A program made the translations under genes and the position numbers. From the NCBI RefSeq assembly GCF_001704615.3, contig NZ_CP029396.2, positions 124,001-188,000 of the forward strand: a stretch of 64,000 bases of DNA. The letters are read 5' to 3'. This DNA is from Acinetobacter defluvii (GTDB lineage Bacteria; Pseudomonadota; Gammaproteobacteria; Pseudomonadales; Moraxellaceae). Under the pieces are notes generated by a model. It worked only from the letters and a program-made list of their open reading frames with translations, was not told where the DNA came from and ran no database searches. Each line of letters begins with the position of its first letter. Positions within the stretch are counted from its first letter, which is position 1. Of the stretch, positions 12,873 to 60,592 are shown in pieces.

Positions 12873-12893
12873 TTTTAATTCTCACTTAATGAC

Positions 12894-13841: not shown

Positions 13842-13854
13842 AAGTATCATCCAA

Positions 13855-14538: not shown

Positions 14539-14548
14539 AACAGCACTC

Positions 14549-17144: not shown

Positions 17145-17591
17145 ATGAAGCACAATAAAAAGCTTTTAAGCGTTCTTGTAATTGGTTTAATGATGTCTGG
17201 GTGTGCTAGTCGTGATGTAACGCAATTAAACGTAGCAAGCCCTTTATCTATTATATCTGAAGCATCTCAAGAGGCTTTAATTGCACAACAGAACTTAAAG
17301 AACTCTTCTGCAATTCAAATGCAAACTGTTCAGAAGAAACAAGGTAGCATCAACCATGACCTTTTAAATATCGACTACATAGGCGATCCAATACCTTTAA
17401 TTAAAAGTATTTCTAGCCAATACGGATACCGTTTTGTAGAAGCTGGTCCTACTCATGAGCTTCCAATTGTTAATTTTAATAAAAAGCGTCTTACTGGTGT
17501 AGAAGCTTTACGCGATGTTTCTGCATATTTAAATACTGCTTCGATAACTCTAGATCATCAAAATAAAAGTATTTTATTGACTTATAACTAA
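17145..17591 (+). CDS. dotD: DotD/TraH outer-membrane lipoprotein
   Basis: This 148-residue lipoprotein has the N-terminus MKHNKKLLSVLVIGLMMSGC, a signal peptide with lipobox MSGC; the cysteine at about residue 20 would be lipidated. The C-terminal domain (about 75-145) contains DYIGDPIPLIKSISSQYGYRF and KKRLTGVEALRDVSAYLN, matching DotD/TraH, whose fold resembles secretin N-domains. DotD works with DotC to place DotH in the outer membrane. It is the first gene of the rightward operon with GGAG before the ATG. Confidence 0.9.
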   Translation: MKHNKKLLSVLVIGLMMSGCASRDVTQLNVASPLSIISEASQEALIAQQNLKNSSAIQMQTVQKKQGSINHDLLNIDYIGDPIPLIKSISSQYGYRFVEAGPTHELPIVNFNKKRLTGVEALRDVSAYLNTASITLDHQNKSILLTYN

Positions 17592-17628
17592 TACCCTTTA
17601 AATCCTTTTATACATATCTGGAGTTTTT

Positions 17629-18438: not shown

Positions 18439-18465
18439 GTTCGCTAACTCAATTGGAAGTTTTAA

Positions 18466-35632: not shown

Positions 35633-38600
35633 TTAAGGTTTACCTTTAAACTTAGACAGAGTTGAACTTAAACCTGAACGCACACGATTAGTCATAGTGC
35701 TACGGCCAGAAATATTAGATTTCTTGGTTGCACTAGAACTAGCACCAAAACGTGCATTAGGAGTCGAACCAGTACCATACGTATAGCCAGTACCACTTGC
35801 AACATTCACACTACCGAAAGTAGAACCAGTCTTAGATGCTGATGCTTTAGCTACACCACGATTAAACGTAGAAGCTGTTTTTCCGTAAGCATTTGCACCA
35901 TATAGACCACCCCCAGTAGTAGGCGTATTATTTGTACCACTTACACTTGTAGCACCCATACCGAATGTAGATTGACCTTGGCTTGGGGTAGGTGATGTTG
36001 GTTTAGCACCAAGACCAGTTCTACCACCCGTACCACCAGTGACACCACTTGGAGTAATACCACCTGTACCACCAGTTGCAGCGCCAAAAGAAGCGGATCT
36101 AGCTGGCATGTTTACAGGGCTATATGCAGTCGTACTACCAGTACCGCCTAATGTATTACCACCTGTACCACCATTGCCACCACCACCACCTTTCGGATTA
36201 TTTGGACCACCCTTACCACCATCAGGACGTCTACCAGGCGGTAAAGGACGGCGAGATGCTGGAGATGGACCAGACAACGTACTTGCAGCGCCACCAAACT
36301 TTTGAATAGCTTCTTTTGAGTTTGTTTCACCCCACTGACCGCCATTCAATCCAGAACCAATCCATTGTTGTACTTGGTCAGCAACACTAAATACCAACCC
36401 GTAAATCAGGTAGATCGCTGAAGTCATCAAGAATAGATATAAGAAGAACTTCCAGATAAACGTAATCAGCTCAGTAAAGATAACTGTAAACGTATTAGAT
36501 GAATAAGCGATGCTCATTGCACCTTGGTAGCTAAAGAACATATCAGTAAGCGTAACAAGAGCTGGCCCGATAATAATTTCAGCCATCCAGAAACCAACAA
36601 TGATAAATATTGGTCGCATGAACAACGTTAATACCGTGACATAACCTTGTGTTTGGCTACCGACAAAAGTACGCTCAGGGATCATGTGCATTAGCGCCCA
36701 TAAAGGCAAACCACACACAGCGTATAGGATATGGATGATCCAACCTACACAAGCTAGACCAAAGAAGATCATTGGCATATATGGAATAACAACCGCCATC
36801 CACACACCAAGAATCGTCAAATACGTTACTAGCTGACCAAGGATAGGAGCAAAGATATTTTCAACGGCATATTCTAAAGCGTTGGTGCCTTCTTCAGTTA
36901 CGCCCTTAAGCCCTGGTACCCATTGAACAAGAGCAGAACCAGAACGAGCAGTAAGCACGACTAATTTCATGCCGACAACAGTACCTTGAGCCACAGCTTT
37001 ATAGACTAAGATTGCTTCACCAGTATCTTGAATATTACGGATAACATTCGTATTGCGGTGCAATGTAGTAGGGCTGATATTTGAGCTTGACGAATTATTA
37101 TTTAATAATTCCGCATCGCCTTTTTCACCGACCAATACACCCATTACCAATGATTTAGTAATGTTTGTTGCCCAAGCAGAACCATATGCCGAAAACTTTT
37201 GATCGATGTTGGATACTTTGTTTGAGTCACCACCATCGGTAGACATTGATATTAAGTTGGTAGAGTCGGCAATATCGCCGTTTGCCACCCAATTATTGTT
37301 GGATGTAATGCTACCAACAGCATTATCCATTGCAACATAAACGGTGTTATAAATTGCTTCACCTTTTGAGTTGCTCATGATTGCTGAATTCAGTGTAGGA
37401 GGGCTGAACGTCCACAAAGGTTCAGTAATATAGTTCTCAACAATAGCGCGATATTGACCTACTTTAATACGAGCTTCAGGCGTCATCATCCAACCGCGCT
37501 GATTTAGCGTATTAACAACAGTTTGAACCGCAGTATAGCCATTTTCAGAAGTCAGAACATTATTCGTTACGGTATGACTCTTATTCACATAATTATCAAC
37601 TAGCGCATTGAAAGCATCCATAGCAGCTTTACTAATCGGGAATGTTCCTTCCTGTTCAGTGGCATTAGGGCTTACTTGATATGCGATATACCACTTTTCT
37701 AAATCGATAAAGAATTGACGATATAGATTGTTCTTTTCTTGTTGTAACTTAGCTTGAACATTTGCCAAAGCAACGTTGATCTTGTTTTGATCTGATTGAC
37801 GAAGTTTATAAACAGGAATGGCCATTAACTCAGCATTAACCGCAGCTGGATTAACAACGTTCATTGAAGCACCGCCACAGATCGGCTCTTTTTTGCCCCC
37901 AACTTCTAAACGGCTGTCAGCGTAAGCGAAGTTATAAGTAACAGATGTCCAGTTACTTGCAGTTTTAGCGGTTTTATCAATGTAGTTTTGCTTTTTCTCT
38001 ACTGCAGTCATGCTAACACCAGGATTAGCATTCGCCCCATAAGCACCATCACTAAAATAGCGCCCGAATGCTGGCGGTAGAGTATAAAACTCTTGGTTTA
38101 GAACGTTAATACAATGCAACTGGCGAAGCATAACAGGCGCATTTTTCCTAAATCCAAAGATGTCACGCTGATGATCGTGCGTATCTGACAAACTAGCCGA
38201 AGCCATTAAGGATTCGCCTAACGTTCTATTATTAATTGTATTGGATACATTATTTGACCATAGCACCATACCTAGCACCACTACTTGAATGAAACAGTAG
38301 CCGGACGCCGTAGGTAAAAGTAAAATAATCGAATATAATATTCGGGAAAACATCGTAGTGACTTTTGAATCTTTCCCGAAAGCTTCACCGTCCTGGGCGC
38401 TTTTCAAAAGTGCTGTTAAACCAATACCGATCGCAAAAACCAAAACCAACGACATTGCCACACTAGCTACACCGCCTAATAATATATTAGTGAGTAAACC
38501 TGATGATGGTACTGTCGAGGCTGGTCCAGACGCATTGATAAACGCATTGATGAAGTCGTGTCCAAAGATAGATGAGAGAAGAGTAACGGCTTGGTCGCCA

Positions 38601-38638
38601 TCACAATTCGGATTTGTCGATTGACAAAATAAACTCAT
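35633..38638 (-). CDS. dotA: DotA/TraY-like polytopic membrane protein
   Basis: I take the ATG at 38638 (MSLFCQSTNPNCDGDQ…, 1,001 residues) because GGTGAG lies just upstream; the open frame extends 21 codons further. Two membrane segments lie near residues 40-120 (including LVLVFAIGIGLTALLKS), a large soluble domain follows (about 120-620), then several segments at about 640-790 (WMAVVIPYMPMIFFGLACVG, FIIVGFWMAEIIIGPALVTL, FLYLFLMTSAIYLIYGLVFS). The last 190 residues are G-, T-, S- and P-rich low-complexity sequence. This is the DotA/TraY topology; DotA is a core inner-membrane protein essential for transfer. It is longer than IncI TraY, partly through the tail. Confidence 0.88.
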   Translation of the reverse strand: MSLFCQSTNPNCDGDQAVTLLSSIFGHDFINAFINASGPASTVPSSGLLTNILLGGVASVAMSLVLVFAIGIGLTALLKSAQDGEAFGKDSKVTTMFSRILYSIILLLPTASGYCFIQVVVLGMVLWSNNVSNTINNRTLGESLMASASLSDTHDHQRDIFGFRKNAPVMLRQLHCINVLNQEFYTLPPAFGRYFSDGAYGANANPGVSMTAVEKKQNYIDKTAKTASNWTSVTYNFAYADSRLEVGGKKEPICGGASMNVVNPAAVNAELMAIPVYKLRQSDQNKINVALANVQAKLQQEKNNLYRQFFIDLEKWYIAYQVSPNATEQEGTFPISKAAMDAFNALVDNYVNKSHTVTNNVLTSENGYTAVQTVVNTLNQRGWMMTPEARIKVGQYRAIVENYITEPLWTFSPPTLNSAIMSNSKGEAIYNTVYVAMDNAVGSITSNNNWVANGDIADSTNLISMSTDGGDSNKVSNIDQKFSAYGSAWATNITKSLVMGVLVGEKGDAELLNNNSSSSNISPTTLHRNTNVIRNIQDTGEAILVYKAVAQGTVVGMKLVVLTARSGSALVQWVPGLKGVTEEGTNALEYAVENIFAPILGQLVTYLTILGVWMAVVIPYMPMIFFGLACVGWIIHILYAVCGLPLWALMHMIPERTFVGSQTQGYVTVLTLFMRPIFIIVGFWMAEIIIGPALVTLTDMFFSYQGAMSIAYSSNTFTVIFTELITFIWKFFLYLFLMTSAIYLIYGLVFSVADQVQQWIGSGLNGGQWGETNSKEAIQKFGGAASTLSGPSPASRRPLPPGRRPDGGKGGPNNPKGGGGGNGGTGGNTLGGTGSTTAYSPVNMPARSASFGAATGGTGGITPSGVTGGTGGRTGLGAKPTSPTPSQGQSTFGMGATSVSGTNNTPTTGGGLYGANAYGKTASTFNRGVAKASASKTGSTFGSVNVASGTGYTYGTGSTPNARFGASSSATKKSNISGRSTMTNRVRSGLSSTLSKFKGKP

Positions 38639-38833
38639 AGCTAACTCACCGTTTTTCTTAATGCTTCTTATACATCGCTTACTTAAGACGACTAAAAGCA
38701 AAGTGTTATAAATTACAAGTTAGACGTTTAACTAAAAGGCTTAATACCTTTTAACCAAAGAATCATTAAAACCATTTTATTACAAATAACAATGGTTTTT
38801 AAATTAGCAATAATGTACCACAAAACTGTTATT

Positions 38834-45581: not shown

Positions 45582-48500
45582 TCACATCTCAAGTCTTAAT
45601 TGGTCAGCTTCATTTTCTTTTTCAATCGAAACTTCAGCAATAATTTTTTGGGTATTTTCGTTTTGCAGATCTTGATCAAATATTTCATTCACACAAGTTT
45701 CGACTAATTGTTCAGTCAAGTTTCTGCAGATCTCAAACTCTAAACCTTTAGGTTGTACGGTAGGGTAGCCGTCAATTAAAAATGAGTTTTTCATTTCATT
45801 TTCATTTGAAACTTTAGAGTACAAATAAGTCTCAAAATAACGAGCAAACATTTCGGTACTGGTCGCGTAATACGGCGTTGCACGATTTTCAGCACTGTCG
45901 ATATTTAAACAATCCTTTTTATAACGCGATAGATTGTCACTAAAACGAATATCACCTACGTTAACTTCAACGTCTTGCGACTTATCAAAGAAGTTTTGCA
46001 TTTGAGTATGAGGATTTTTAACTCCCTCAGGCATGTACTTCTCTACCAGGTTATAGAACTTGTATTTAGATGACTCTATCAAGTATTCAGATAGGTTTTG
46101 CGATAGTGTTTTTAAATCCACATTCGCTGCGTTCGCAACACCTGTAATTTTTTCTTCCAAACCGGTTGTAGGTAAATGATGTTCTGGCTGGCGCATATCA
46201 TTAAGTTTTTGCTGATAGCGCTCAAACGACTTAAAGCTTATAGCATTAATGTCAGTGTTAATTTTAGAGACAATGACATCCACCTTGTCTTGAACTGTAC
46301 TGAAGAAAGATAGGTTTGTATCAGCTTTATATTCACGCTCATACTTCTTCAAGTACTCTTCAATTTTCTCAAACTGACGGCGAATGAGATCTTCATAGTG
46401 CTTTTGGTGCCAGTCAAAGAAGCTGTTTAAGGTTTTGCGCGTAGAATTAGGATAATTCTCTTTATTCTTAATCACTTCATCATGCATTGAATCAGCAACA
46501 GTGTGGTACGCCTTGATTGCAGTCTCAGCATTCTCATGAAGTACTTGACCGTAATTTTTCATTGGCTGAACTGGCTCATTCATCATCGCACGATGTACCT
46601 TTTCAAAAGCACGACCGGACTCAGTAACAGGGGAGTATCCAGCATCCAACATATTTGATAAGAAGTGTCGTGCACCTGGTATCTCAAAATTAGGGATGTC
46701 TTCATAATAGTCCTGAAGTACAGAACGATTCATTTGAGCGTGATTTTTATATACTTCCGCTTTTTCCAACATTCCCAAGTGTGCATCTAGCGCATGGCCA
46801 TACTCATGAGCCAAACTTCCAGATCCGCTATCACGAGTTAAGTTAACCACGTTCTTAGACAGTTCAAAATGCGCTGCAGATCCTTTAATTCCGCGTGAAG
46901 CCAAAGCAACACCCAAGTTCAATAAACCATTGTTTGATTTAAAGCCCATGAGTTGTTTTAAGTCAGCCAATGAGTCATACACGGCATTAACCAACTGTTG
47001 AGCCACAGGACTAACTTTATTGCCTACTTCAACACCACGGATAGAAAAGTCATCTTTAAGCTTGAATGAATCCACATCGGCACCTTGGCGATGATCAGGA
47101 CCAGTACGAGAGTAATTTAACAATCCGTAAATACTTGATTGGACTTTTTCAGTCACAAAGCCATTTTCAAGTTTTTTCACTTCACTGGTAAATGACGGCA
47201 AACGTGGTGCTTTAGGTGTATTCACAGCTTCAGTCGTTGCTTCTATAACTGGTGCAACAGGATCTTTAACATAAATAGGTGCAGATTCAGCTTTAACTAA
47301 ACCACTTTCAATCGCACTTTTCAGAACGTATGGTTCAAGCACAGTTGAATATAAGCCAGTACGTTGCATGTTGCTGATCGCATCGCTCACATCTTTAGTG
47401 ACTTTCGACTTACCGTAAAAATCAAAGATCTTACCTGTTGATAGAATCTCACTGAGTTCTTTATCAATCGTTTTTTCGATGATTTTCTCAAGCTGAACAC
47501 TGATACCGCCTGTATGTTCTGGCATAATGTAGTACTCATTCAAATTGCTAAGCAATTCGAAGTAGTTTTTGTAGTTGTTCTTGGTACCTTTACTATAAAG
47601 CCCGATATAGTCTTTACGTTGGCGATCAGTCATACCAAGACTTTCAGCAGATAAGCTTTTATTGTTTCTTACCGCATGAATCAACTCTTCTTGAGTATCT
47701 ACCATCAAATTTCTGATGTTAGAAACAACAGCCACATACGCACGTAATTCTGTCGCTCGTTGGCTATCAAGCATCAACGCATTTTTAGAGAATAACGGTT
47801 TAGTTGGGCAGTAGTCATACATTGCCTTTACGAATATTTTGTCATCAATACCGAGTGGCGTATTGGTGTACCAAGCTTGGAATTCTTTATTTGCAACGAT
47901 TTTTGCTTTTCGATAGTCCGTAGCTGTTTGATCGGCTGATGTCGCTGAAATATATTCCAATGAAATGTATTCACCGTAGCGATCTTTATGTGCACCGCCA
48001 AACTTGGCACCTACATCACCTAAGTACGTAGCAGGGGAGTCACTTGGCTCTACCTTTACATCAACAGGCACATATTTGTCTTTTGGTACCAATTGATCGA
48101 TAAACGTGAAGTCAGTAAACACACGGTTTTGAAGTTGTAAGACATCTTCAACTGAGCGCATACTTTTAACAGGAAAAACGCACAGAGACTTGTAATCACC
48201 GTGAATATCGGACTTATCACCAAAAAGTTTAACCGATGCATATTCATTGTCGGTCGATGGCTTGATGGCCAAAAACAATTTGTGATTTTCAGTTTTGATA
48301 TACGGCTTTATGTGTGCGGTTTGATCGTATAGAGCACCAAGCGTATTCGTAATCAAAGTTTGGAAATGCAAACTTGCTAACTGTTTATTCTCAAAGTCAG
48401 TTTTGTGTTTAATCTGAATTTCAGGCAAGTTAGATAGTGCTAATTGCTCTAAAGTGGTACCGAAATTAACCTTAGATTCGATAGCATTTAAGATTTCGTG

Positions 48501-51500
48501 ACTAAACTGGTCTACATCATCAAAACCAGTAATCAATTGATACTGATAGTCATGAGACGGTATACGAAGAAGCACGGCAGTTAATTGAGGCTCATAGTCC
48601 GTATCAACCATAAACAATTGCGGTGTTTCATCTTGTTGAGATGATTTGTTTAGCAACTTGTATTGGTGAACTTTAGGGTTGGAACCTACAAAATGCTCAG
48701 CATAAGCCTGTTTAATCGTATCTTGTAATGCTTTGACATGCTCAAGCATGACGGCATTGACTTCATTTAAAGCGGTTAAGGTTTTATATTTTTCTGCAAA
48801 CGCCTCATTCACGGCGATCTGCTCTAACATAAATCTAGGCTGAATATCCTCAAGTTCTGGATTACCTACACGGTTTAATACAACACTAAATTTGAGCTTA
48901 TTAATGAACGGATCAGGTTCACCATTGATACCATTGCTAAAAAGTTCTTTAAGATCACTTTTCTGAAGTTTAGAGTTCACCAAATCAAACGGATGAACTT
49001 CTTCAAATGCCTGAACATCAAAAACTTTGGTTAAGTTTTTAGGCATGATTGCTGTCTGGCCATCTACATGAGCGATAACATAGGTGTACGCTGGAGAGAT
49101 GTTGCTCAGAAGCTCAGTGACTTCATTCGGTTTTTTATCGTAGCTAAGATCCTCAAACTTTTCGTATGTTGCAGAATTAAGATTGCTGATGAAATCTAAT
49201 TTAGAGTTGAAATTAGATGGATGATCAGAAATGTACTGGAACATCTTGTTTGGTAAAGACGTAAACACTTTATTGATTAAAGTTTGCTGACTATCTTTAG
49301 CTTTGAAGAAGTTGAGATCTGACTCGTAATATTTTTCAAAAGTGAACTTAGCTGGAGGCATAAACGTCATGCTGTTGCGTGAAGTCGATAACTTAAACAA
49401 AGCATTCGCAGACGTTTTAACCGCATCTCTATCATTAAAGCCAGTAGCCTTATGTATATTGGCATCTAGGGAAACTGAATGCCCAATAAACGGCGCATTT
49501 TTGTCTTTATGATTGTAGAGGCGTATATACTGAAGATCATTCTTTTGAAACACAGTGATAAACAAATCATGATCAGGGATCTTGATTGCGCCGTGGTGAT
49601 CTTCATAGTGCTTTACAGCATTTTCTAGCTGAGTGTTAAAGTATTCAGATTCACTATTGAACTGTACGTTCTCTTCTTCAGCTGTTAGAGAAAAATATTT
49701 AACGTTATTCTGAAAAGCTACATTAGGTTTGAGAAGATCCTTAATCACCTCAAATTCTTTTTGTACTTCAACATCAAATTTGCCAAAAACTGTACGCTGA
49801 TTAATATCAATCAGGTTCAGATAGTTGAATAGCTGAATGTTGTTGTAGTTGTGGTTCGGTAGGGCAGTTTTGTTTAACTGGAGCTTACCATCTTCTAACT
49901 GCATGCTTTGGACTTGCTTCAAGTCATCTGCAGTCAGCTCTACACCAAAGACTTTCTTAGTTTCTTGTTTGAGCTCTTTATCTTCACCAGCAATCACTAA
50001 GGCAGCTAGTTTTTGTGCCTTGTCATAATCGCCATCTTCTAGATATAGGGTTTTTTCAACAAAATACTTGGCAATGTTCGCATACGCTTGATTTGTTGCT
50101 TTGTAGCCATCGGTAGACAATGAAAAATGTTTGTTTTCATCAAATTCATTTGATTTAACGGTTTTAACTTTTAAATCGTCAATGTCACCCGTTGGTTTAA
50201 TCTGAACATAGATTTCATCTGCAGCGAGATCCATGTTCGAGACAAATAAGGTCGAATTTTTAGAATAAAACTGACGTTCGATACTCGACAACAGATCCTT
50301 TGCATCTTTACGGTCTTCTTCCATGTCAGACTGCATATCTTCAGCAATCGACTTGATGTTTTCGCCACGGTCATCCTTTGTGATAAATGACCAGTCTTGT
50401 TGCGGATATTTGGCTGTTAATGCCTTTTGGAAGCTTTGAACTTCAACAAAGCGATTGAACTGACGGTCCAGACTAAACCCATCTGTATGTGATGAAGTTT
50501 TAGCAAGAATATCCTCAGGAACAGAATCAGATTTAGTCTTACGATTGAAGTTTTCACTTGCATTTGGCACCAATAAATTACGGAATAAAATCTCATTTAC
50601 ACCGTTCTTTAAGAATGACGCACTTTTAGTTTGTGATAGAGATTGTTTTAAAAATGCTTCATCAAAGTTTGATTCATCAAGAAGCCGAGTAAACTCTTCA
50701 AAATACGCTGAAGCTAATTTATCGTTATTAGCAAGATCAGCCGTGCACAGATCGCTTAACTCTAAACGCTGTACATCTTGCTCTAGCTCTAAAGGCGCAG
50801 AAAAATCACCAGCAACAAAATCATTGATATTTTGCTCAACATAATTGTTCGTGCGTGACATCAACATATCAACTGCAGTTTCATTATTCACAAATTCCTG
50901 AAGCTCAGGCGTGTTAATTGAAACCAATTGATTGTCGAATTGCTTAGATAGTAATTTGAACAGATCCGCTTTATGTTGATTGCTTTCTACTTCAGATTCA
51001 AAACCTACAAATTTGCCGTTTTCATCTTTAGCGTAGTAGAAGCTGTTTTTATTAAACAAAAAGGTATTTGTTGCAGACGTAATGCCAGATACCAAAGTTT
51101 CACTTTGCCATAAGACTTTTTTAACTTCATTGTACTGTTTTGAGATCTCAACATTGTGTGTGTCGATTTCGTCAGAGATCGCTTGAATATCATCTACGCT
51201 GAAGTTTTTTGTTTGTGTAGCTGAGCGCACGACATCTTGAATTTCAGCATATTTCTGATTTAGATAATCACTATATTGCTTCTCAATTTGTTGAGCTTGT
51301 TCAGTAGCCTTAGGAATGACATAGACATCCAAGATCTGTCTAATTTCAAGCATAGACGGCGCGAAATCACGCACCTTGTCATTGCCTCTTGCATCCAATA
51401 ATTCTTCAGGAAACTTTAAGAGCTCTTTCAGTACGGCAACATCATCAATTTCTGGAGTAGGGAGGTCATTTGCAATGTTGAGTAGATCAGACTCAGTAAT

Positions 51501-52808
51501 AGATGCCTTCTCAGTTGCCTCAAAATTAACATCAAGATCATTCAAGATCTCGTTAACATTTGATTCATTGAGTTGTTCTTCTAGTTTACGCTGTTTGATT
51601 TCAGCAGATTGGTGATCATAGAACGCATTAAACTTAGGAACGATGTTTACAGAGAATTCAGAGAACTCTTGGCTCAGATCGGCAAAGTAAACTTTACCTG
51701 TTGGCATCTGGCGTACCATTTGTTGTAAGACATCATGGCGAAGCATGGCAGCGTCATACACCATTTTATCTACAAGGCGTGTTTCAATACCTTGTTTAGA
51801 CGCCATCCATGTGCCGTGTTCATCTTTATAAAAAGCTGGAATACCTTGATTAGCTGATTCTAATAGCTTTGGATACGGCAATTGCTGTTGATTAAACACA
51901 CGGTCTATCACAACAAGATCAGAAGCTAATTTTTGTACATAAGCATCAACATCTTTAAAGCTCATGTTAAACATTCTGTTGCCACGGCCATGTTCAATCA
52001 GCTGATTAAAAGTGGACTCGTATTCATGAGCAAAATGCACCAGGTTAATATTGTCATTTAACCCCAATGCTTCATACGGATCATGAGCAAAGATTTCAGG
52101 AATATGGCGCAAGTCATCAATAATCAGTAACGAACCATCTTTTTCGTAATTGACGGGTACTGCAAATGGAGACAACTTAATTTTGGCTAGATTATCTGGA
52201 CTTTCGCCACTGGCCATCGCTGATTCTTCATCTAGATAGACTTTAGAGAAGATATTTTCATAGCCATAATCTTGAAGACGATTAAACGGAATTTTTGAAG
52301 ACTGAAATTGAGCCAAGTAGGATTTGTTCGATTCCTGAAGACTGGTTTTCAGCGTATCAAGGATATTAGATCCATTGTTTAGCTTACTGACATACACTTC
52401 AGGGAAAGCGGAAAGGCGTTCGGTTGCTGATGCGAAGTAACTTTTCCAGTTCGGAATGTTCTTCTTAAATGGTAGATTGGTGAGATAAATATCTTCTTGC
52501 TTAGTCGGTACTTTCATATCGTTGGTAAACGCTGGAAAGACCTTCTGAAGATCGTTTAGATCGATACCAGACTTTGCCGGGTTTTTATAGTAGTACGCAT
52601 GAATACCATCATCATTTTGCACTTCATAAAAATGGGCATCCATTAACACTTGTTCAAATTGCTTAGAACTGTTTTGTTCAATAGATTTTTTGAATTGCTC
52701 AAATTCATTAACAACAAGCATCGCCGTTTTTTGGCGAAAATTGTTGGCTGGCGATACTACAAGACGCGCACCAAGACCAGTTAAATTAGGCCATTTAACT
52801 TCATTCAC
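45582..52808 (-). CDS. Giant polyvalent-type protein 1 with LPD1-like HExxH domain
   Basis: I take the GTG at 52808 (AGGAG eight bases upstream), giving about 2,408 residues; an ATG ten codons earlier is in frame. The N-terminus (KWPNLTGLGARLVVSPANNF) matches that of giant protein 2. Further colinear blocks are KFGGAHKDRYGEYISL near residue 1600 and an LPD1-like domain near 1920-2010 (SIRGVEVGN…ALASRGIKGSAAHFEL…VVNLTRDSGSGSLAHEYGHALD). HEYGH lies at about 2001-2005, and YATSTEMFARYFETYL near 2319 may give a third metal ligand. Long helical regions make up the rest. The large polyvalent proteins of conjugative elements and phages are proposed to enter the recipient with the DNA and counter host defence; the function here is inferred. 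No signal peptide. Confidence 0.85.
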   Translation of the reverse strand: MNEVKWPNLTGLGARLVVSPANNFRQKTAMLVVNEFEQFKKSIEQNSSKQFEQVLMDAHFYEVQNDDGIHAYYYKNPAKSGIDLNDLQKVFPAFTNDMKVPTKQEDIYLTNLPFKKNIPNWKSYFASATERLSAFPEVYVSKLNNGSNILDTLKTSLQESNKSYLAQFQSSKIPFNRLQDYGYENIFSKVYLDEESAMASGESPDNLAKIKLSPFAVPVNYEKDGSLLIIDDLRHIPEIFAHDPYEALGLNDNINLVHFAHEYESTFNQLIEHGRGNRMFNMSFKDVDAYVQKLASDLVVIDRVFNQQQLPYPKLLESANQGIPAFYKDEHGTWMASKQGIETRLVDKMVYDAAMLRHDVLQQMVRQMPTGKVYFADLSQEFSEFSVNIVPKFNAFYDHQSAEIKQRKLEEQLNESNVNEILNDLDVNFEATEKASITESDLLNIANDLPTPEIDDVAVLKELLKFPEELLDARGNDKVRDFAPSMLEIRQILDVYVIPKATEQAQQIEKQYSDYLNQKYAEIQDVVRSATQTKNFSVDDIQAISDEIDTHNVEISKQYNEVKKVLWQSETLVSGITSATNTFLFNKNSFYYAKDENGKFVGFESEVESNQHKADLFKLLSKQFDNQLVSINTPELQEFVNNETAVDMLMSRTNNYVEQNINDFVAGDFSAPLELEQDVQRLELSDLCTADLANNDKLASAYFEEFTRLLDESNFDEAFLKQSLSQTKSASFLKNGVNEILFRNLLVPNASENFNRKTKSDSVPEDILAKTSSHTDGFSLDRQFNRFVEVQSFQKALTAKYPQQDWSFITKDDRGENIKSIAEDMQSDMEEDRKDAKDLLSSIERQFYSKNSTLFVSNMDLAADEIYVQIKPTGDIDDLKVKTVKSNEFDENKHFSLSTDGYKATNQAYANIAKYFVEKTLYLEDGDYDKAQKLAALVIAGEDKELKQETKKVFGVELTADDLKQVQSMQLEDGKLQLNKTALPNHNYNNIQLFNYLNLIDINQRTVFGKFDVEVQKEFEVIKDLLKPNVAFQNNVKYFSLTAEEENVQFNSESEYFNTQLENAVKHYEDHHGAIKIPDHDLFITVFQKNDLQYIRLYNHKDKNAPFIGHSVSLDANIHKATGFNDRDAVKTSANALFKLSTSRNSMTFMPPAKFTFEKYYESDLNFFKAKDSQQTLINKVFTSLPNKMFQYISDHPSNFNSKLDFISNLNSATYEKFEDLSYDKKPNEVTELLSNISPAYTYVIAHVDGQTAIMPKNLTKVFDVQAFEEVHPFDLVNSKLQKSDLKELFSNGINGEPDPFINKLKFSVVLNRVGNPELEDIQPRFMLEQIAVNEAFAEKYKTLTALNEVNAVMLEHVKALQDTIKQAYAEHFVGSNPKVHQYKLLNKSSQQDETPQLFMVDTDYEPQLTAVLLRIPSHDYQYQLITGFDDVDQFSHEILNAIESKVNFGTTLEQLALSNLPEIQIKHKTDFENKQLASLHFQTLITNTLGALYDQTAHIKPYIKTENHKLFLAIKPSTDNEYASVKLFGDKSDIHGDYKSLCVFPVKSMRSVEDVLQLQNRVFTDFTFIDQLVPKDKYVPVDVKVEPSDSPATYLGDVGAKFGGAHKDRYGEYISLEYISATSADQTATDYRKAKIVANKEFQAWYTNTPLGIDDKIFVKAMYDYCPTKPLFSKNALMLDSQRATELRAYVAVVSNIRNLMVDTQEELIHAVRNNKSLSAESLGMTDRQRKDYIGLYSKGTKNNYKNYFELLSNLNEYYIMPEHTGGISVQLEKIIEKTIDKELSEILSTGKIFDFYGKSKVTKDVSDAISNMQRTGLYSTVLEPYVLKSAIESGLVKAESAPIYVKDPVAPVIEATTEAVNTPKAPRLPSFTSEVKKLENGFVTEKVQSSIYGLLNYSRTGPDHRQGADVDSFKLKDDFSIRGVEVGNKVSPVAQQLVNAVYDSLADLKQLMGFKSNNGLLNLGVALASRGIKGSAAHFELSKNVVNLTRDSGSGSLAHEYGHALDAHLGMLEKAEVYKNHAQMNRSVLQDYYEDIPNFEIPGARHFLSNMLDAGYSPVTESGRAFEKVHRAMMNEPVQPMKNYGQVLHENAETAIKAYHTVADSMHDEVIKNKENYPNSTRKTLNSFFDWHQKHYEDLIRRQFEKIEEYLKKYEREYKADTNLSFFSTVQDKVDVIVSKINTDINAISFKSFERYQQKLNDMRQPEHHLPTTGLEEKITGVANAANVDLKTLSQNLSEYLIESSKYKFYNLVEKYMPEGVKNPHTQMQNFFDKSQDVEVNVGDIRFSDNLSRYKKDCLNIDSAENRATPYYATSTEMFARYFETYLYSKVSNENEMKNSFLIDGYPTVQPKGLEFEICRNLTEQLVETCVNEIFDQDLQNENTQKIIAEVSIEKENEADQLRLEM

Positions 52809-52938
52809 TTTATAGTCTCCTACTTGGTCACATAGCATGATCCAAGACTTTAAAACGACTCTTACGAGTACTTATATGTGCTTATATTAAACTAAAAAAT
52901 TAACTTTGAGGGAGGGTTTAGGCGTTATTCTTTAAAAT

Positions 52939-52948
52939 AGTATATACC
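52939..52948. promoter_or_regulatory. AGTATATACC motif, putative operator (site 9)
   Basis: It lies 131 bp upstream of the GTG start of giant protein 1, in the gap after the terminator of giant protein 2. Confidence 0.45.
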
Positions 52949-53054
52949 GAGTAAATAGCAATCTAAAACCGTGCACTATTCTTTCTTTTTTTATAAATAA
53001 AAATGCCACCGTATAGCGCCCCATGATTCCATTTATAAGGTTTAAATAAAAAAA

Positions 53055-53081
53055 AGATGCCACCCACAGGGGATAGCATCT
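53055..53081 (-). terminator. Intrinsic terminator after giant protein 2
   Basis: On the minus strand AGATGCTATCCC pairs with GGGTGGCATCT and eight T residues follow, 17 bp past the stop at 53098. So the two giant genes are separate transcription units. Confidence 0.85.
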
Positions 53082-53097
53082 AAGATCTCAAAATTGC

Positions 53098-56000
53098 TTA
53101 TAGTGCCAATTCAGGATCGCTATTCTTTTGTTTGCTTAATTCTGGATCTGCTTGTACTTCAATGTTGGTCATGAGCTTAGTCCAATATTCATCGTATTCA
53201 GCTTGTGACATCTCATTAATGACTTCATTCCATTTAACTAGGTTCTCATGTTGATCTGTACCCGGTTGGAAGAAGTGCATTGCATTTCTGACATACTGCT
53301 GATGATCAGCAAAACGCAGTTCAGCAATATTTTCCTGAATATAGTCCAGGCCCTTCACCGTAAATTCGCGAATCTCCTTCATGATTGCATCTTTTTCTAT
53401 ACCATGCGGTTGAGTTACAGAAGATGAACCACCTTCAGGACATGGGTAAACAAGCCAATCATTACGCAAGTTCATTTCTGCTAAGGTCACTTGTAAGTAC
53501 TGCTCACCACTACGGGCAAACATTTCATGTGCGGTCGTCCAATACGGCTTCTTAGCACTTGTTAAGCCCTCTAATACCATCGCATTTTTGTAGAAATCAG
53601 TTTTTAGCTGAGATTGATTAGCTGATGTTAAGCGATCGTTCGTCTGTAAGCTTAAAGAAATTAACTTTAAGTGTTCATCTGACAATGGTTTAGGGCTGTT
53701 TTCTTTGATGAAGTCGAGTGCACATATCGCAAACTGACTACGCAACATTTGTCGATAATCACGGAATACAACTGATCTAAAGACTGTACTGTTCGCTGCA
53801 CCAAGTACTTGCGCTGCAAAGACACGATCATGATCAATTTCAGAACGAGATTGCGTGATATATTTGTTGAGCTCAGTCCGTGGGATTGGATACTCATTTT
53901 CAGACAAGAACTTTTGTAAGCCGTGGGCAACGTGCATATAACGTCTATGCTGTATGGCGTCCTTTTGGAAAAGTTCAGGATCTTCATGACGATTAGCGAA
54001 GTTAATCAATGAAGATAGTTCAGTATGCAACTTGCCACGTTCCGCAATAAACGTATTAATTTTCTCTTTTATGCTGTCTCTATCTGGCGTAAACAAATCA
54101 ACAATGTCAGGTTGATCTACCAATGTTTTATCCAAAATCGTTTTGATGCTGGTTTCATAAAACTTGACTTGATTCTCAAGATTCGTGCGAAGTACTTCTA
54201 TCGAGTCATCCTTTTTCATTGGCAAGTAATACATCGCTTGATTTACTTTGGCTGCAGCTTGCAACAAATCTTGGTTAATGTTGGCATACTTCTCAGACTT
54301 AATGTTATTCAATTCTGCAAAACGAGTTAGATAAGGCTGTACGTTTTCCATCATCATTTTTGGTTGATTGCGTGTCATCGCACTAAAAATGAGATGGTCA
54401 TAGGCATGGAAAAATTCATGACCAAACGAGCCAAAACCTGAATTCTTGGTTAAGTTAATCACACGGTTAGATGGCTCGTAATGTGCCATCGCAGCGGAAC
54501 GTCCACGCGAACCAAAAGCAACACCCAACATACCGTTAAAGCCAACAAATTTCGGATCTATATCAAGTGCCTTAGCAAGAGCGAAACAACCGTCATATGC
54601 GTTATTTAATGCGATTTGACGATCGCTCTGGTTCAAGTACTCGCCAAACTCTACGGCTTTAAATCCAAAGGTCGCTTGCAAGGTATGTGCTGTAACATCT
54701 TGGCCATTACGTGAAGCAATGTTTTCCGTCACAACCACATCACTGAGCTTGAATGCCTTACGCATAGTACGAGGCTTAGCATACTCTTTGAATAGGGCAT
54801 CTAAGGTACTCGCCGTGTCATCTACAATGTTCGATACATTCTTTTCAGATAACGAGACTTCTTGAGTATCATCATTCTCTGCAGTTGCGTCTTTGGTTTT
54901 TTTAGCAGTTAACAGATCCATTACTTGTTCAGATAGACCAGCATCAGATCTGCTAAATAGCGTACTCGAATCTATAATGTTGCCACTTCTAAAAGTAACA
55001 GTCGCTTTTACTTTGTCTTGGAACGGTTTGGCATCAATCGCACTACGTATTTTTTTATAGATAGAGTAGGTGCCTTTAACTGGCGGTAACTCTTTCCGTA
55101 AATGATGAAGTGCTTCAGTGAGCGTTTTACGTGCTTCACTACTATCGGTTTTCGCCAATTCAGAACTAATAATCATGTCAGTGGCAGCATATTCAGCATA
55201 GCTTTCTACCAATGAAAATAATGACCGATCTAATGATTTAAACGCCGTGAACAGATCTTTGTCTTCATTCAAACGAACGTATAAATCACATGCATTAGGA
55301 ATAAATTCACGAACTGTTTTTGCTTCCATTAAAGCATCACGCATACTTAAAACAGCGTCATAGTATCCAGCACCTACTTTTTTAAACTGTTCTTCAGTGG
55401 CATTTTCAAGCGGATAACGTGGCTGATCATTCGTCATCTTGCGTACAGCGTCAGTCAGCAAGTGAATGTAAATATCTCGACCAGCTTCTTTTGCTTGTAA
55501 AACCGATTCCTTTTTCCAAATTTTGTCACGCGTAATTAGGTTTTTGACTTGCAAAAGCGACATATCTTGAATCTGACTGAGCGATAAACGTGGACCATAC
55601 AGATCCTTTTTCGCACCAGGCATTTTCATACCCGTATCTTCAATAAGTCCAACTTCAGAACGTGACTCAGTGGCTTTCGGTTTGGTTGTTTTTGGCTCTT
55701 TTGGTGCTTCAGCTTCAGGCTTACCCTCAGACTCAAACAGTGATGTTTGCTCTGGAGCAACTGGCTCAGTCGGCTCTACAACTTCTACCGTTGCTTCCTG
55801 TACTTCTGGTTCAGTAGGCTTTTGAACTTCAGGTTCAGTTACGATCGGTTCTTCAACCAATGGTTCTTGGGCAACTTCTACAACAGGTGCGCTTTGAACC
55901 ATATGTTCAGGTTTATATACTTGATCGCGAGACTTAAATAATTCTGCTTTTTTGAATGATTTTGCAAAATCAGTAATTAAGAAGTTCTTAGAGTTCGGGT

Positions 56001-59000
56001 GCTTTGGCGTAGGAAGAATTTTATAGCCTTGATCAACAAATTGCTGATGTTCGGCATTATTCACAATGGCCAGTTTTAACGGAGATTGATCATCGGCAAC
56101 TTTAATCGCGAGATCGAACCGGTCTTTAGATTCAAGTAGCTTTTCACCAAAGGTAAAATCAATTTTATTGACCAATGTTGAAATATTAACAGCCACAATC
56201 TCATTAAGGCCTTTAACATCAATATTTTCAAAACCGGGTGATAATGGCACCTTGATTGTCTGCAGTATGTTTTCACGTAACCCAAGATCATTTAATACTT
56301 GGTCCACAAGATGCGCTTTTATCCCGTTTAACTGGAAGTCTTTAAACAATCCACCACGCTCGTTGAATTTAGCAAACTGCTCAACATTATCAAAAACCCG
56401 TAATTGATCATGCTGTAAAACTGGTGTGTCTTTATCTATGACAGAAATCACTAAATCAGCACCGTCATTGGCCACAATAATTTTGGAGCCGTTTTCAAAC
56501 GCTTGATCCATTTCTTTTTGATGGATGTAGTCGGTAAAGACGTTCATCAAATCAACATTGGTCATCACATCATTGCTTTTCACAAAATCGATTAGATCTT
56601 GTTTCGCCGTTGGATCGATGTATTGATTATCGGCATCACGCAAAGTTAATGCCTTGTAATCGTCCAACTCAGGGTTAAACAATACCTTTTCTTTAAGGTG
56701 TAGGTTTTCGATCGACTGGAAGATCTGATAGCGTTTTTCTAATGAGTCGATCAAGTACTGCATTTGCTCTTGCGTACTTAAAACTGAATCATTGCTAAGC
56801 GTCAAAGCTTTAAACAGCGCCTTATCGTCTGCAGCTAAGTCATTCAGACTTGATTTAACGATTAAGCGATCGGTAGACGGAATCTGTTCACCGCTGAAAT
56901 ATAAGTTAATCGCACCGTGCTTTTGTTCATCAGCTGGTGAAACCGTGAGATAAAAATTTATCTCAGGAAACTCAAACTCTTTGATACGTTCTGGATTGGT
57001 GATAATGCTTAAAAGAGATCCCGTTTTTGTCTCGAGAGATTTATTTTTTAGTGCCGTCCATTCTTCAATAGAACGATTTTCAAATGACTGCAGTAGGGCA
57101 GAATTGATTAAATCACGGTTGAGGTTAAATCCATTCTTGAGTGAGTCTGGAGTCGATTGTAATGCTTCAAGCACAAGCCCATGTTTAAAGAGATTGCCAA
57201 AGTCATTTTCACTGTTAACATCGGTCTTTTCAAGTGGCAAGAAACTTGATGCATGCTCATAGACATTCTTAACTTCAATATCAAGCTTTAAGCCTTTTTC
57301 ATATTTCGGTACCGCTTCCTTGGTCAAAATACGATTAAGAATTACATTCTTAAGGTCATCATAGGTCAGCTTGTTTTTGCTGATCGGATTAGAGCTCAGG
57401 ATATGTTCAAACGAAGAAGCACCATTAATCATAATGGTTTTTTGCTTTTGTAATGAACTAACCTTTTGACCTAGATCCATCGGCAGTAAGCGAATGAAGT
57501 TCTGATCAGATGCTATCGTACTGCTATACACCGCCAAAGAACGTGCGCTAACTTCAGGCTCAACCATCAAAGCGTTACCTTCAGCTAGGTAGGTTTTTAC
57601 CGCTTCTTCAGTCAACGTGACGACATTTTCAATTTTCGAGTCTTTTGGCGCCGTGACTTCATTGTAGGTCGGTGTTAGATAACCTAGTGCCATCAAAATA
57701 TGCTTGTGCTCATTATTAATAATGGCAGTAACCGCTTCAGATTTAGACTCTTCACCCACGGCATTTTGATAAAAGTCTTGTAGATAGCGCTTATACGCCA
57801 TACTTACCGCGACCTTTTTATTTAAGGCAAAAAGCTGTTCTTGTGTATTTGAGTTGAAGTGGTCTTTATGTATCACCTTAGGCAGATAGTTTTGAAAGCT
57901 GTCTACCACATAGATTTCATCTTTTTCGAGTGTTTCTTTTAAAGACAAAACTTCATTGGTCGCAGCAAAAACAATCGCGTTGGCCAGTGCATTACCAGGA
58001 TTCGTGCGTACACGTAATTCCTCATTTATCGCATGATTGAGTTGCGACCTAATATCAGGTAATCGGTTAAGGATAGGGGAGTCAGGATTGTTGCCAATAT
58101 TGCTACTCAGCTCAGAAAGCACATGAGCCACATCGATACGCTTATTAAAACCCTTGTAGTTACCGTCCTGTTCTAACAGGTTATAGAATCGCTCTAAGCT
58201 TTCATCCGATAAATATTGTGATGCAATGCTATGGGCATCACCATCACCAAGCGCCGTAAATTGGCTATTAATACTATGCAGTTGTTGAAGAATACGAGGC
58301 ATTTGCTGATGAAATGAAAAGTAGTTTTTACCTACATTTTCAGCACTGGTCGCAATCATGTCCTCAATACTGTTATCCAGCACTGATACAGCATTCGAGA
58401 ACACCATATCGTTAAAATCTGGCATTGCAGATTCTTGAGATGGTGAATATCCCAAAATAGAATATTCAAACTTTTCGACTGCAGATAACTCTTGATCTTG
58501 TTCATCATAATAATGAACCACATCAAACTGGTTAACAGCTTCATTCCAAAGCCCGTTAGGTTCTTCACCTAGATCAACGTTGAAATGATAAATGTCAATG
58601 TCATTTGAGGTGTGAGTAGCTTCAAACTCGTTCGCCTCATCCAATAGACGTTGCATTTCATCTTGCAATTCATCATCGGTGACAACGCTTTGTAGGAAGT
58701 TATCCAGATCCGTGCCGTATTCTTCACGGTCTATCACTGAATCAAAAAAACTATCATAAAGATTGTTCAGACGCGTAGAAGCAATGTTTAACTGACTTAA
58801 TGCCAATTCCATTTCATAAGCTTGATCGTCATAGGCTTGCTGATCCAAAACATACGCATTTTCAGTAGCAACAGCGACTTGAATCGCAACCGCTTTTTCA
58901 ATACGCTCACTGATGGTATGTGTTGCTTTCGCTTCAACAATCGCTTGACGTTCTTCTTTGAGCTTTGCAATTTTTTGTAGGTATTCTTGCTTAATTTTTC

Positions 59001-60384
59001 GCATTAAAGCGAGTTTAGTCAAAGAGTCCTTAATGACTGGTTCTGGAATGTTCGGCTTAAACTTGGTGTGTCTAAAAAAGTGATCAATTCGATTGAACAA
59101 ACGTTTTACTGGAACCTTAGGTTCAGGCGGTATGGTTTGCTTAATTTGATTGAGATCCAAGCTTTCTAAACTTGTACCGATGTCATCCAAACTTTCATAA
59201 ATTAATTCACGATCAAAACTGCTATCACCAATTGAGTAGGGATCAAATGTTCTTAAATTATTAATATTATTTTGAACGCTTTGGATCAGGTCCTTAATCT
59301 TATCGGCAAGGTCGAATTCTTCTACATCTAAAGTTTGGTTGTTGTATTCCCAAACTTTCCAATCATTGTCCACCAGCTGTAACGCAGTTGTTTCTATACC
59401 AAATGGTGCCAATGCTGACGGGATGCTGTTTTCTTCGTATGAATACAAACAGTCATTGATTTTCGTGACTAAGGTTTGAAGCTTGATCAATCCTTGGTGA
59501 TTAACGGCATGATCATCCGATCTAAGCGCATTCACAATTGGATCAATGCTCGTATTCAGCCCCTTATTCAGCTCTCGAATATCAATAAATTGCTTCGGTA
59601 AGCTGTTATACGCTGGCCATGCTGGATGTGAAGATATTTTATAATTGGTCAGCTCAGGAATTTGCGTAATATCTTTTAGGGCAAGTACTTCACCGCCTGA
59701 ATTAACCGAAATCACTAGCTGTTTGCTTAGTTCAATAGGCTCTATCGTATCTTCTATGAGTCCAGCATTTAGCGCTGCTTCTTTATCAACATAATAACGA
59801 GTCAGTGTTTTATCTGCTTGGTACCCGTAATTGTCTAAATCAGCCAACGGCAATGGATCTACGGACTGCAGTAATGTCGGTAGCTTATTCCAGCCTAAAT
59901 CTGCTTTATTGAATTGTTTAACCGCACCCATAATGGTTGTATTTGGGGCAAACGGTTTTTGCTGTTTTGCTTGGTAAAGCACAACGGACTTTTGATTATT
60001 GAGTTCAAATAGGGATTGCCACTGGTTTTTTTCAGCACTACTCATTGGGTTTTGCAGATATATATCTGACATATCCATTTCAATGAGGTCATTTTTAGAG
60101 TCGTAAGGAAAAACAGATTTTATGTCAGCAAGAGAGAGACTATCTTGCGAACTCTTATACATAAAACTAAGGTCGTTATTTTGCTCATTGGTGATATAAA
60201 CAAACTTTCCAGTCTTTTTTAAACCTGTTAAGAAGCTGTTTAAGGATGTGTTCAACTTTTTCTCTAAAAGCTCAACATCTTTAATCTTAATAATGGCTGC
60301 TTGGTTTCTTAAATCAGTTTTAGGGGTTACTACAAGTTGAGCGCCAAAGCTACTCAGATCCAACCATTTCTTTTTAGTTGACAT
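53098..60384 (-). CDS. Giant polyvalent-type protein 2 with LPD1-like HExxH domain
   Basis: This 2,428-residue protein is paralogous to giant protein 1: the N-terminus KWLDLSSFGAQLVVTPKTD aligns, GMKMPGAKKDLYGPRLSL lies near residue 1589, and the LPD1-like domain at about 1900-2000 reads FKAVEFGEYL…LGVAFGSRGR…MAHYEPSNRVINLTK, then SFGHEFFHAYDHL. HEFFH is at about 1989-1993, and YWTTAHEMFARSGEQYL lies near 2287. A proline/glutamate/valine-rich linker occupies about 1498-1565, absent from giant 1. Similarity elsewhere is low, so the two have diverged long ago or have different middles. GGAG precedes the ATG. It has its own GTATATAC site 72 bp upstream and its own terminator. A role in the recipient cell is plausible but inferred. 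Confidence 0.87.
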   Translation of the reverse strand: MSTKKKWLDLSSFGAQLVVTPKTDLRNQAAIIKIKDVELLEKKLNTSLNSFLTGLKKTGKFVYITNEQNNDLSFMYKSSQDSLSLADIKSVFPYDSKNDLIEMDMSDIYLQNPMSSAEKNQWQSLFELNNQKSVVLYQAKQQKPFAPNTTIMGAVKQFNKADLGWNKLPTLLQSVDPLPLADLDNYGYQADKTLTRYYVDKEAALNAGLIEDTIEPIELSKQLVISVNSGGEVLALKDITQIPELTNYKISSHPAWPAYNSLPKQFIDIRELNKGLNTSIDPIVNALRSDDHAVNHQGLIKLQTLVTKINDCLYSYEENSIPSALAPFGIETTALQLVDNDWKVWEYNNQTLDVEEFDLADKIKDLIQSVQNNINNLRTFDPYSIGDSSFDRELIYESLDDIGTSLESLDLNQIKQTIPPEPKVPVKRLFNRIDHFFRHTKFKPNIPEPVIKDSLTKLALMRKIKQEYLQKIAKLKEERQAIVEAKATHTISERIEKAVAIQVAVATENAYVLDQQAYDDQAYEMELALSQLNIASTRLNNLYDSFFDSVIDREEYGTDLDNFLQSVVTDDELQDEMQRLLDEANEFEATHTSNDIDIYHFNVDLGEEPNGLWNEAVNQFDVVHYYDEQDQELSAVEKFEYSILGYSPSQESAMPDFNDMVFSNAVSVLDNSIEDMIATSAENVGKNYFSFHQQMPRILQQLHSINSQFTALGDGDAHSIASQYLSDESLERFYNLLEQDGNYKGFNKRIDVAHVLSELSSNIGNNPDSPILNRLPDIRSQLNHAINEELRVRTNPGNALANAIVFAATNEVLSLKETLEKDEIYVVDSFQNYLPKVIHKDHFNSNTQEQLFALNKKVAVSMAYKRYLQDFYQNAVGEESKSEAVTAIINNEHKHILMALGYLTPTYNEVTAPKDSKIENVVTLTEEAVKTYLAEGNALMVEPEVSARSLAVYSSTIASDQNFIRLLPMDLGQKVSSLQKQKTIMINGASSFEHILSSNPISKNKLTYDDLKNVILNRILTKEAVPKYEKGLKLDIEVKNVYEHASSFLPLEKTDVNSENDFGNLFKHGLVLEALQSTPDSLKNGFNLNRDLINSALLQSFENRSIEEWTALKNKSLETKTGSLLSIITNPERIKEFEFPEINFYLTVSPADEQKHGAINLYFSGEQIPSTDRLIVKSSLNDLAADDKALFKALTLSNDSVLSTQEQMQYLIDSLEKRYQIFQSIENLHLKEKVLFNPELDDYKALTLRDADNQYIDPTAKQDLIDFVKSNDVMTNVDLMNVFTDYIHQKEMDQAFENGSKIIVANDGADLVISVIDKDTPVLQHDQLRVFDNVEQFAKFNERGGLFKDFQLNGIKAHLVDQVLNDLGLRENILQTIKVPLSPGFENIDVKGLNEIVAVNISTLVNKIDFTFGEKLLESKDRFDLAIKVADDQSPLKLAIVNNAEHQQFVDQGYKILPTPKHPNSKNFLITDFAKSFKKAELFKSRDQVYKPEHMVQSAPVVEVAQEPLVEEPIVTEPEVQKPTEPEVQEATVEVVEPTEPVAPEQTSLFESEGKPEAEAPKEPKTTKPKATESRSEVGLIEDTGMKMPGAKKDLYGPRLSLSQIQDMSLLQVKNLITRDKIWKKESVLQAKEAGRDIYIHLLTDAVRKMTNDQPRYPLENATEEQFKKVGAGYYDAVLSMRDALMEAKTVREFIPNACDLYVRLNEDKDLFTAFKSLDRSLFSLVESYAEYAATDMIISSELAKTDSSEARKTLTEALHHLRKELPPVKGTYSIYKKIRSAIDAKPFQDKVKATVTFRSGNIIDSSTLFSRSDAGLSEQVMDLLTAKKTKDATAENDDTQEVSLSEKNVSNIVDDTASTLDALFKEYAKPRTMRKAFKLSDVVVTENIASRNGQDVTAHTLQATFGFKAVEFGEYLNQSDRQIALNNAYDGCFALAKALDIDPKFVGFNGMLGVAFGSRGRSAAMAHYEPSNRVINLTKNSGFGSFGHEFFHAYDHLIFSAMTRNQPKMMMENVQPYLTRFAELNNIKSEKYANINQDLLQAAAKVNQAMYYLPMKKDDSIEVLRTNLENQVKFYETSIKTILDKTLVDQPDIVDLFTPDRDSIKEKINTFIAERGKLHTELSSLINFANRHEDPELFQKDAIQHRRYMHVAHGLQKFLSENEYPIPRTELNKYITQSRSEIDHDRVFAAQVLGAANSTVFRSVVFRDYRQMLRSQFAICALDFIKENSPKPLSDEHLKLISLSLQTNDRLTSANQSQLKTDFYKNAMVLEGLTSAKKPYWTTAHEMFARSGEQYLQVTLAEMNLRNDWLVYPCPEGGSSSVTQPHGIEKDAIMKEIREFTVKGLDYIQENIAELRFADHQQYVRNAMHFFQPGTDQHENLVKWNEVINEMSQAEYDEYWTKLMTNIEVQADPELSKQKNSDPELAL

Positions 60385-60520: not shown

Positions 60521-60552
60521 AAAGGGATGGCTTAAAACCATCCCTTTTTTTT
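60521..60552. terminator. Terminator after the exported-paralogue operon
   Basis: The strong stem AAAGGGATGG/CCATCCCTTT has a 7 nt loop and T runs on both strands (weaker on the minus strand). It separates the three exported-protein genes from giant gene 2. Confidence 0.8.
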
Positions 60553-60562
60553 AAGTTTTTTT

Positions 60563-60581
60563 CATTATCAGCCTGATAATG
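60563..60581. promoter_or_regulatory. Solitary parS-like palindrome
   Basis: CATTATCAGCCTGATAATG is the same palindrome as in the 24 kb array, with C in place of A at the centre. T and A runs extend it to about 30 bp of perfect symmetry. It lies just past the stop of the gene ending at 60593 and may be an outlying ParB site. Confidence 0.55.
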
Positions 60582-60592
60582 AAAAAATCAGG

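Follow-up and report, generated by a model that had tools for sequence, protein, structure and literature searches.

What two giant proteins encoded side by side among the transfer genes of a conjugative plasmid might do is the question raised by a 64,000-nucleotide stretch of Acinetobacter defluvii DNA (the window; bases 124001-188000 of the 355,358-base contig NZ_CP029396.2). The genes for protein A (45582..52838, 2418 amino acids, of the LPD1/CLCA_X polyvalent type) and protein B (53098..60384, 2428 amino acids, the paralogue of A at both ends) lie on the reverse strand, as do all the features within them given below. The end sequences of A and B suggest that the proteins may be injected into the recipient, with the DNA, by the plasmid's own transfer machine. 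The explanation that best fits the whole, and to which slightly better than even confidence is given, is that the type IVB conjugation system of the plasmid itself carries A and B as polyvalent-type cargo. The original prediction, made from the sequence, had spoken of co-transferred effectors or anti-defence proteins; support for this role has risen through the N-terminal domain that they share with a DarB-like neighbour, the strict link of that domain to DotH in a sample of the genus and the Dot/Icm-like C-termini, but it is still a candidate role.

Both frames are open over these coordinates, as had been predicted, and the expected landmarks recur in both proteins: an N-terminal GARLVVSP (A) or GAQLVVTP (B) segment, GAHKDRYG at residue 1615 of A and GAKKDLYG at 1590 of B, HExxH at 2011 and 1989, and EMFAR at 2329 and 2287, respectively. 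Homology between A and B extends beyond chance motifs (BLASTP E 1e-19 for the N-terminal and 2e-22 for the C-terminal parts), and profile-profile comparison with four orthologues on each side matched A15-250 with B6-245 (E 1.9e-15) and A1606-2371 with its counterpart (E 3.5e-17), the slices between these ends giving no significant match. Between the common parts, each protein has a specific middle of about 1,300 residues. The two were said to be colinear, which is true of their overall length but not of their sequence, as the middles (A320-1520, 48279..51881; B300-1480, 55945..59487) show no detectable homology. Homology of the middles, either between A and B or of each with its orthologue in Acinetobacter sp. 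10FS3-1, was looked for and not found (best E 0.03), although one too old to be detected may exist, and the sequence and profile searches made matched no known domain in either of them, in agreement with their description as undescribed. A Pfam scan of A and B with E up to 1 returned only LPD1 and a sub-threshold DUF2533, without a match to MPTase-PolyVal or ArdC-N, and the DarB-like dyad of adenine methylase and SWI2/SNF2 helicase is absent from both by Pfam. Sequence search of solved structures gave none for A and one weak match for B (E 0.54), and the PADLOC search for defence systems gave no match for A and only a weak one for B (E 0.025).

As a kind, giant LPD1 proteins are not new, and proteins of the A/B type already bear this annotation. 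Full-length orthologues are known at 44-58% identity to A and 46-60% to B, and plasmids of Acinetobacter sp. 10FS3-1 and A. indicus carry giants of 2806 and 2689 residues at the corresponding place near DotA. In a tree of the protease core, A groups with the 2806-residue giant (support 95/97) and B with the 2689-residue one (98/99); thus, A and B go back to an old duplication of which both copies have been retained. Judged from these comparisons, the middles appear to have changed past recognition while both duplicates persisted.

The N-terminal domain (N-domain) of A (residues 14-117, 52488..52799) is the same as that of B (residues 5-108, 60061..60372) and is common, via intermediates, with a third giant of 2210 residues, encoded on the same strand about 11 kb upstream of A and B (L012:7802-14434). 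Pfam assigns this third protein a strawberry-notch helicase C-terminal domain (E 3e-15); it also has an adenine-methylase region, containing NPPFG, over which PADLOC reported a match to mad2 of MADS (E 1e-10); the archetype of such a methylase-helicase dyad is P1 DarB in the passages of Iyer et al. (PMC5512222). The N-terminal residues are alike in the methylase-helicase (IKWIDLSQAGVYL), A (VKWPNLTGLGARL) and B (KKWLDLSSFGAQL). The motif W[ILFVMP][DNQ][LM] within the first 40 residues occurs in 4 of the plasmid's 857 open reading frames (ORFs), namely A, B, the helicase and one other, against 2.15 expected and, thus, is alone no proof of a common domain. N-terminus alignments were built for the proteins in the LPD1 slot (Acinetobacter, Xanthomonas) and for the methylase-helicases (Acinetobacter, Xanthomonas, Yersinia, Cupriavidus, Pseudomonas), and they match each other at 95.3% (E 2e-8), or at 97.5% (E 7.4e-12) when only the first 115 residues are used; the 115-column N-domain model leaves out the Stutzerimonas row. 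Among 300 column-shuffled controls, 297 scored at most 19.9 against 67.1 for the real comparison, and the other three, which reached 133-134 via alignments of 8-17 columns with zero posterior sum, are taken for program artefacts.

A model built from helicases only, searched against 5,670 ORFs, recovered the LPD1-slot proteins of pAB3-like and A. junii plasmids at E 9e-9 and 1e-7 and other LPD1-slot proteins at E 0.007-0.1, no unrelated ORF falling below 0.24; in the same set, it missed A and reached the B type only at E 3.8. In two plasmids added later (a set of just 12 proteins), this model scored the LPD1-slot proteins at 28.1 bits (E 1.4e-9) and 23.9 bits (E 2.8e-8), the 28.1-bit protein being a near relative of the A. 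junii one. The N-domain begins near residue 289 of the annotated frame in the Yersinia helicase, and its match in the Xanthomonas campestris helicase is weak and partial (12 bits). Comparison with solved structures by sequence yielded no useful match, and a probe of the domain found no match in P1. Among 50,697 phage records, the domain is present in two, CAKLQH020000019 and CAKLQF020000023, both 69-kb contigs. These contigs, filed as 'Acinetobacter phage MD-2021a', also carry a helicase giant of the pAB3 (plasmid) type, so they are probably plasmid pieces, and the N-domain was rejected as a phage feature.

The distribution of the N-domain links it to the transfer system. It was found in 10 of 149 Acinetobacter genomes, in two or three proteins each (28 matches, all in frames of at least 1255 residues), and in all ten it sits on both an LPD1-bearing and a helicase-bearing giant, as judged by frame length. 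DotH is limited to the same 10 genomes, whereas LPD1 reaches 16 and the helicase family 15; thus, in this sample, the N-domain tracks the transfer system and not the cargo type, a linkage to be taken with caution as 7 of the 10 genomes share one plasmid lineage. Among 369 gammaproteobacterial genomes, DotH was present in 48, and the N-domain was found in just two, the window's own genome and, as a weak match (E 6e-4), one that lacks DotH. At the search sensitivity used, the domain is specific to one branch of type IVB plasmids; the LPD1 giant of a Stutzerimonas type IVB plasmid (1515 residues) lacks it. The order helicase giant, other genes, LPD1 giant(s), DotA is repeated in 10FS3-1 and pAB3-like plasmids, and its first three items are kept in Xanthomonas. 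In the A. junii plasmid pKO16_VIM, an IS30-family element splits the LPD1-slot gene and an IS3-family element splits the methylase-helicase gene and, thus, both genes can be lost.

The last 15 residues of A (45585..45629) and B (53101..53145), each with Leu at position -3, are candidate type IVB export signals. The tails of giants tagged with the N-domain have little in common except Leu or Met at -3 (16 of 19), a pattern that was spotted before being tested. A recount, in which 8 later proteins were added and near-identical tails removed, comprised 22 distinct tagged tails; neither count includes the A. junii genes that are interrupted, nor the Stutzerimonas protein and the neighbours that are untagged. 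In the recount, 16 of the 22 tails had Leu or Met at -3, compared with 33 of the plasmid's own 261 ORFs of 150 amino acids or more (Fisher test, 2e-9, a probability to be read as a guide since homologous proteins are not independent), 5 of 59 phage-type LPD1 proteins and 4 of 36 stand-alone LPD1 proteins; 1 of 30 other window genes has either residue there. A hydrophobic residue or Pro at -3 or -4 was found in all 22 tagged tails, against 151/261, 24/59 and 23/36 in the same three controls. In the later tails alone, the strict pattern was weaker (2/5) and the broader rule held in 5/5. In passages of the literature on Dot/Icm substrates, a hydrophobic residue or proline at -3 or -4 is critical (PMC2701608), leucine or another hydrophobic residue stands at the extreme C-terminus (PMC7251119), and E-blocks are described (PMC3096851). 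A and B follow the first of these rules through Leu at -3 and contain 6 and 5 acidic residues, respectively, between positions -25 and -4, by a simple count. However, A and B differ from Dot/Icm substrates in being candidate cargo of a conjugative plasmid, in their giant size and in their extra N-domain, which was not met in those passages.

Two large unmatched genes flank the methylase-helicase gene on the reverse strand (contig 191083-195489, L012:3083-7489, and 202466-204100, L012:14466-16100); with Leu and Met at position -3 of their products, they may encode further cargo. Mixed residues at -3 kept the gene upstream of the helicase from being counted as cargo.

The C-terminal parts of A and B contain an unusual module that resembles zinc proteases. 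The CLCA_X core (NF041907) matches residues 1909-2024 of A (46767..47114; HExxH at 2011-2015) and 1891-2040 of B (54265..54714; HExxH at 1989-1993) with 88.6 and 109.1 bits, below the NCBI cut-off of 260, which makes them homologous and not filed members. LPD1 (PF18796) matches residues 2317-2358 of A (45765..45890) and 2277-2339 of B (53368..53556), at the EMFAR helix with Glu2329 and Glu2287, with 32.7 and 34 bits against the Pfam gathering cut-off of 27. The likeness to LPD1 that had been proposed for the HExxH block is, therefore, real in that both giants exceed the Pfam cut-off, but it belongs to the EMFAR part; the HExxH block matches CLCA_X instead, and its reading as LPD1 was rejected.

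The motif itself, HEYGHALD in A (2011-2018) and HEFFHAYD in B (1989-1996), follows HExxHxxD, with an Asp seven residues past the first His that is invariant in the alignment. The CLCA_X consensus is printed as HExxHxxxD by Lenart et al. (2013; PMC3650047), who suggest the Asp as an additional ligand. This consensus was counted as present in A and B, although the printed spacing differs by one position, and the two Asp residues are taken to be the same. The structure prediction that had been called for in this region gave a confident model which, compared with listed fold families, has a gluzincin-type fold: the HExxH helix is followed by a three-stranded sheet and then by a Glu-bearing helix. 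In the model, CLCA_X supplies the HExxH helix and LPD1 the following helix with its invariant Glu, and this Glu would be the third metal ligand, favoured over Lenart's Asp because of its conservation and the fold. The ATLF-type gluzincin fold of the catalytic region of anthrax lethal factor was among those listed for the model, a shared fold that shows no function, but the sequence matches are not significant (E 0.06 and 0.59) and stop short of LPD1, and Pfam gave no such family. A stand-alone CLCA_X and LPD1 gene is present on the same contig at 222891-224531 on the forward strand (L013:14891-16531); its 546-residue protein begins at the GARKD block, lacks the N-domain and has Trp, not Leu or Met, at -3.

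As with the LPD1 polyvalent proteins in the passages of Iyer et al. (2017; PMC5512222), A and B combine LPD1, giant size, a metallopeptidase-type domain and a presumed early role in the recipient with a location on a mobile element that bears a type IV secretion system and conjugation genes. Polyvalent proteins are expected to have at least two distinct effector domains, and in A and B the protease-type module alone is recognised, the middles being unmatched. They also differ in the absence of any other named polyvalent domain, in their own N-domain, in the 1,300-residue unmatched middle and in an HExxH-to-Glu spacing of 298-318, where the median is 97. With CLCA_X (NF041907, PMC3650047), they share HExxHxxxD, conserved surroundings and a distribution over plasmids and phages, but they fall under the NCBI subfamily cut-off and would use the LPD1 Glu as ligand. 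The Dar system of phage P1 resembles this plasmid in joining a methylase-helicase giant to a large metallopeptidase-ended protein, which in P1 travel with the DNA; however, the setting is type IVB here and the capsid in P1. P1 DarB gave a 149-residue match to one plasmid relative only (E 2e-4), and P1 DdrB and DarA gave none. A term search of the main text of two published accounts of these mega-plasmids found LPD, notch and helicase unmentioned, and a search of openly available literature returned no account of the shared N-domain or the C-terminal pattern, the N-domain having no name that could be searched.

The delivery, cleavage, target and benefit that we infer from these domains, homologies and linkages would run as follows. 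The giants would be made in the donor with both ends marked for the type IVB machine; the N-domain, common with the DarB-like methylase-helicase, would recruit differing giants either to the coupling complex of the type IVB system or to the DNA in transfer, and the extreme C-terminus, with its hydrophobic residue at -3, would serve as a Dot/Icm-type export signal. After entry with the DNA or ahead of it, the protease could free the middle by self-cleavage or cut a defence or host protein in the recipient, helping the incoming plasmid past restriction and into establishment, and the methylase-helicase, arriving by the same route, would modify DNA there. This proposal leans on analogy with P1 DdrB, which is processed and packaged, and with ArdC of pSa and TraC1 of RP4, which have C-terminal peptidases and are transferred whole, according to passages of Iyer et al. 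(PMC5512222). More tentatively, and with clearly less than even confidence, there may be a branch of type IVB plasmids with a two-ended delivery label (a W-[ILFVP]-[DN]-[LM] N-domain and a Dot/Icm-like C-terminus) that injects an anti-defence kit of 200-300 kDa proteins. The kit would then join unrelated cargo, a protease pair whose payloads change fast together with a DNA methylase-helicase, and reading the label would give the cargo list of any such plasmid. If the giants are injected cargo, this would explain in part how large plasmids cross species and restriction barriers, protein transfer by conjugative type IVB systems would be directly testable, and LPD1, a domain of elusive function, would gain a role as the second half of a metallopeptidase.

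Four other readings were considered. A and B may be parts of the donor's mating apparatus, the N-domain docking on the type IVB machine and the protease maturing or remodelling a machine or envelope protein. This seems unlikely, although it would account for the setting of A and B, which in several plasmids lie close to DotA with other transfer genes around them, and for the tie between the N-domain and DotH in the genus sample: the N-domain is also carried by a DNA methylase-helicase, whose activity is of a type that belongs to the recipient side, the C-termini obey the export rule, and the middles are unrecognisable even between orthologues, which is unusual for machine parts. ArdC of R388 is much smaller than A and B. 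It resembles what is proposed for them in being plasmid-borne, having a metalloprotease domain and acting in the recipient, and the passages of its description show a protein of DNA-binding and metalloprotease domains that is effective when made in the recipient, not in the donor, and whose protease activity is dispensable (PMC7213743). By this result, A and B may likewise be made in the recipient after plasmid entry and act against restriction without transfer, with a dispensable protease; such a reading is rather doubtful, as ArdC-N, which binds single-stranded DNA in ArdC, was not found in A and B by Pfam and their C-termini are of the export type. Just as doubtful, and compatible with delivery, is an N-domain that binds DNA or the relaxosome and loads the giants on the transferring strand, the C-terminal pattern being incidental: one partner of the domain is a DNA methylase-helicase and the domain is not universal among type IVB systems, but the -3 pattern is enriched against three controls in tails that are otherwise unalignable. 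That A and B are effectors against rival bacteria or other hosts, and not helpers of plasmid establishment, is very improbable since, even if their fold is common with secreted proteases (which shows no function) and type IVB systems are able to inject effectors, the genes lie among plasmid transfer genes near a DarB-like protein of the DNA-protection type and their carriers are environmental and clinical alike.

Separate regulation had been predicted for each giant, and it was found in part. Convincing terminator-like hairpins are located after B (53055..53081, with a T run) and upstream of it (60521..60547), both on the reverse strand, and a perfect palindrome, an operator-like candidate, lies at 60561..60583; by these sites, B looks like a unit of its own. 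However, the search detected no terminator-like site following A, and 9 bases separate the stop of A from the next ORF on its strand; promoter-like sites are rarer than in shuffles (27 against 50.6). The palindrome has one partial copy in the window, with 3 mismatches, at 24886-24908, and none in shuffles.

The 14.8-kb A and B pair is matched by 65 plasmid records, Acinetobacter without exception, of which 63 cover at least 80% of it and 64 have an identity of at least 99%; NZ_CP089045 is identical across the stretch and annotates both genes as 'LPD1 domain-containing protein'. This plasmid family spans more than 12 Acinetobacter species, with environmental and clinical isolates among the hosts, and resistance genes are present on the named member examined. 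The type IVB context ascribed to the giants is borne out by Pfam matches in the window to DotG (TrbI), DotH and DotI (11361..14649, reverse strand), DotD, DotC (T4SS_TraI) and DotB (17145..19761, forward) and DotM (25315..26844, forward). The annotation of NZ_CP089045 adds a DotL-type coupling protein (941..3733, reverse), with a weak TraG-D_C match below the Pfam cut-off, and a DotA/TraY family protein (35633..38701, reverse), with no Pfam match. An IcmW-like gene, not found in the searched stretches of the window's plasmid, adjoins the helicase giant in Xanthomonas and Yersinia plasmids and is also present in the Stutzerimonas transfer block (L031:8714-9226, L034:25596-26129, L039:13713-14228). 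The window also contains ParA/ParB and a ParM-like gene, as well as a 670-residue protein (32821-34833, reverse strand) with an M23 peptidase match and weaker lysozyme-like matches, which probably serves the transfer system as a peptidoglycan hydrolase.
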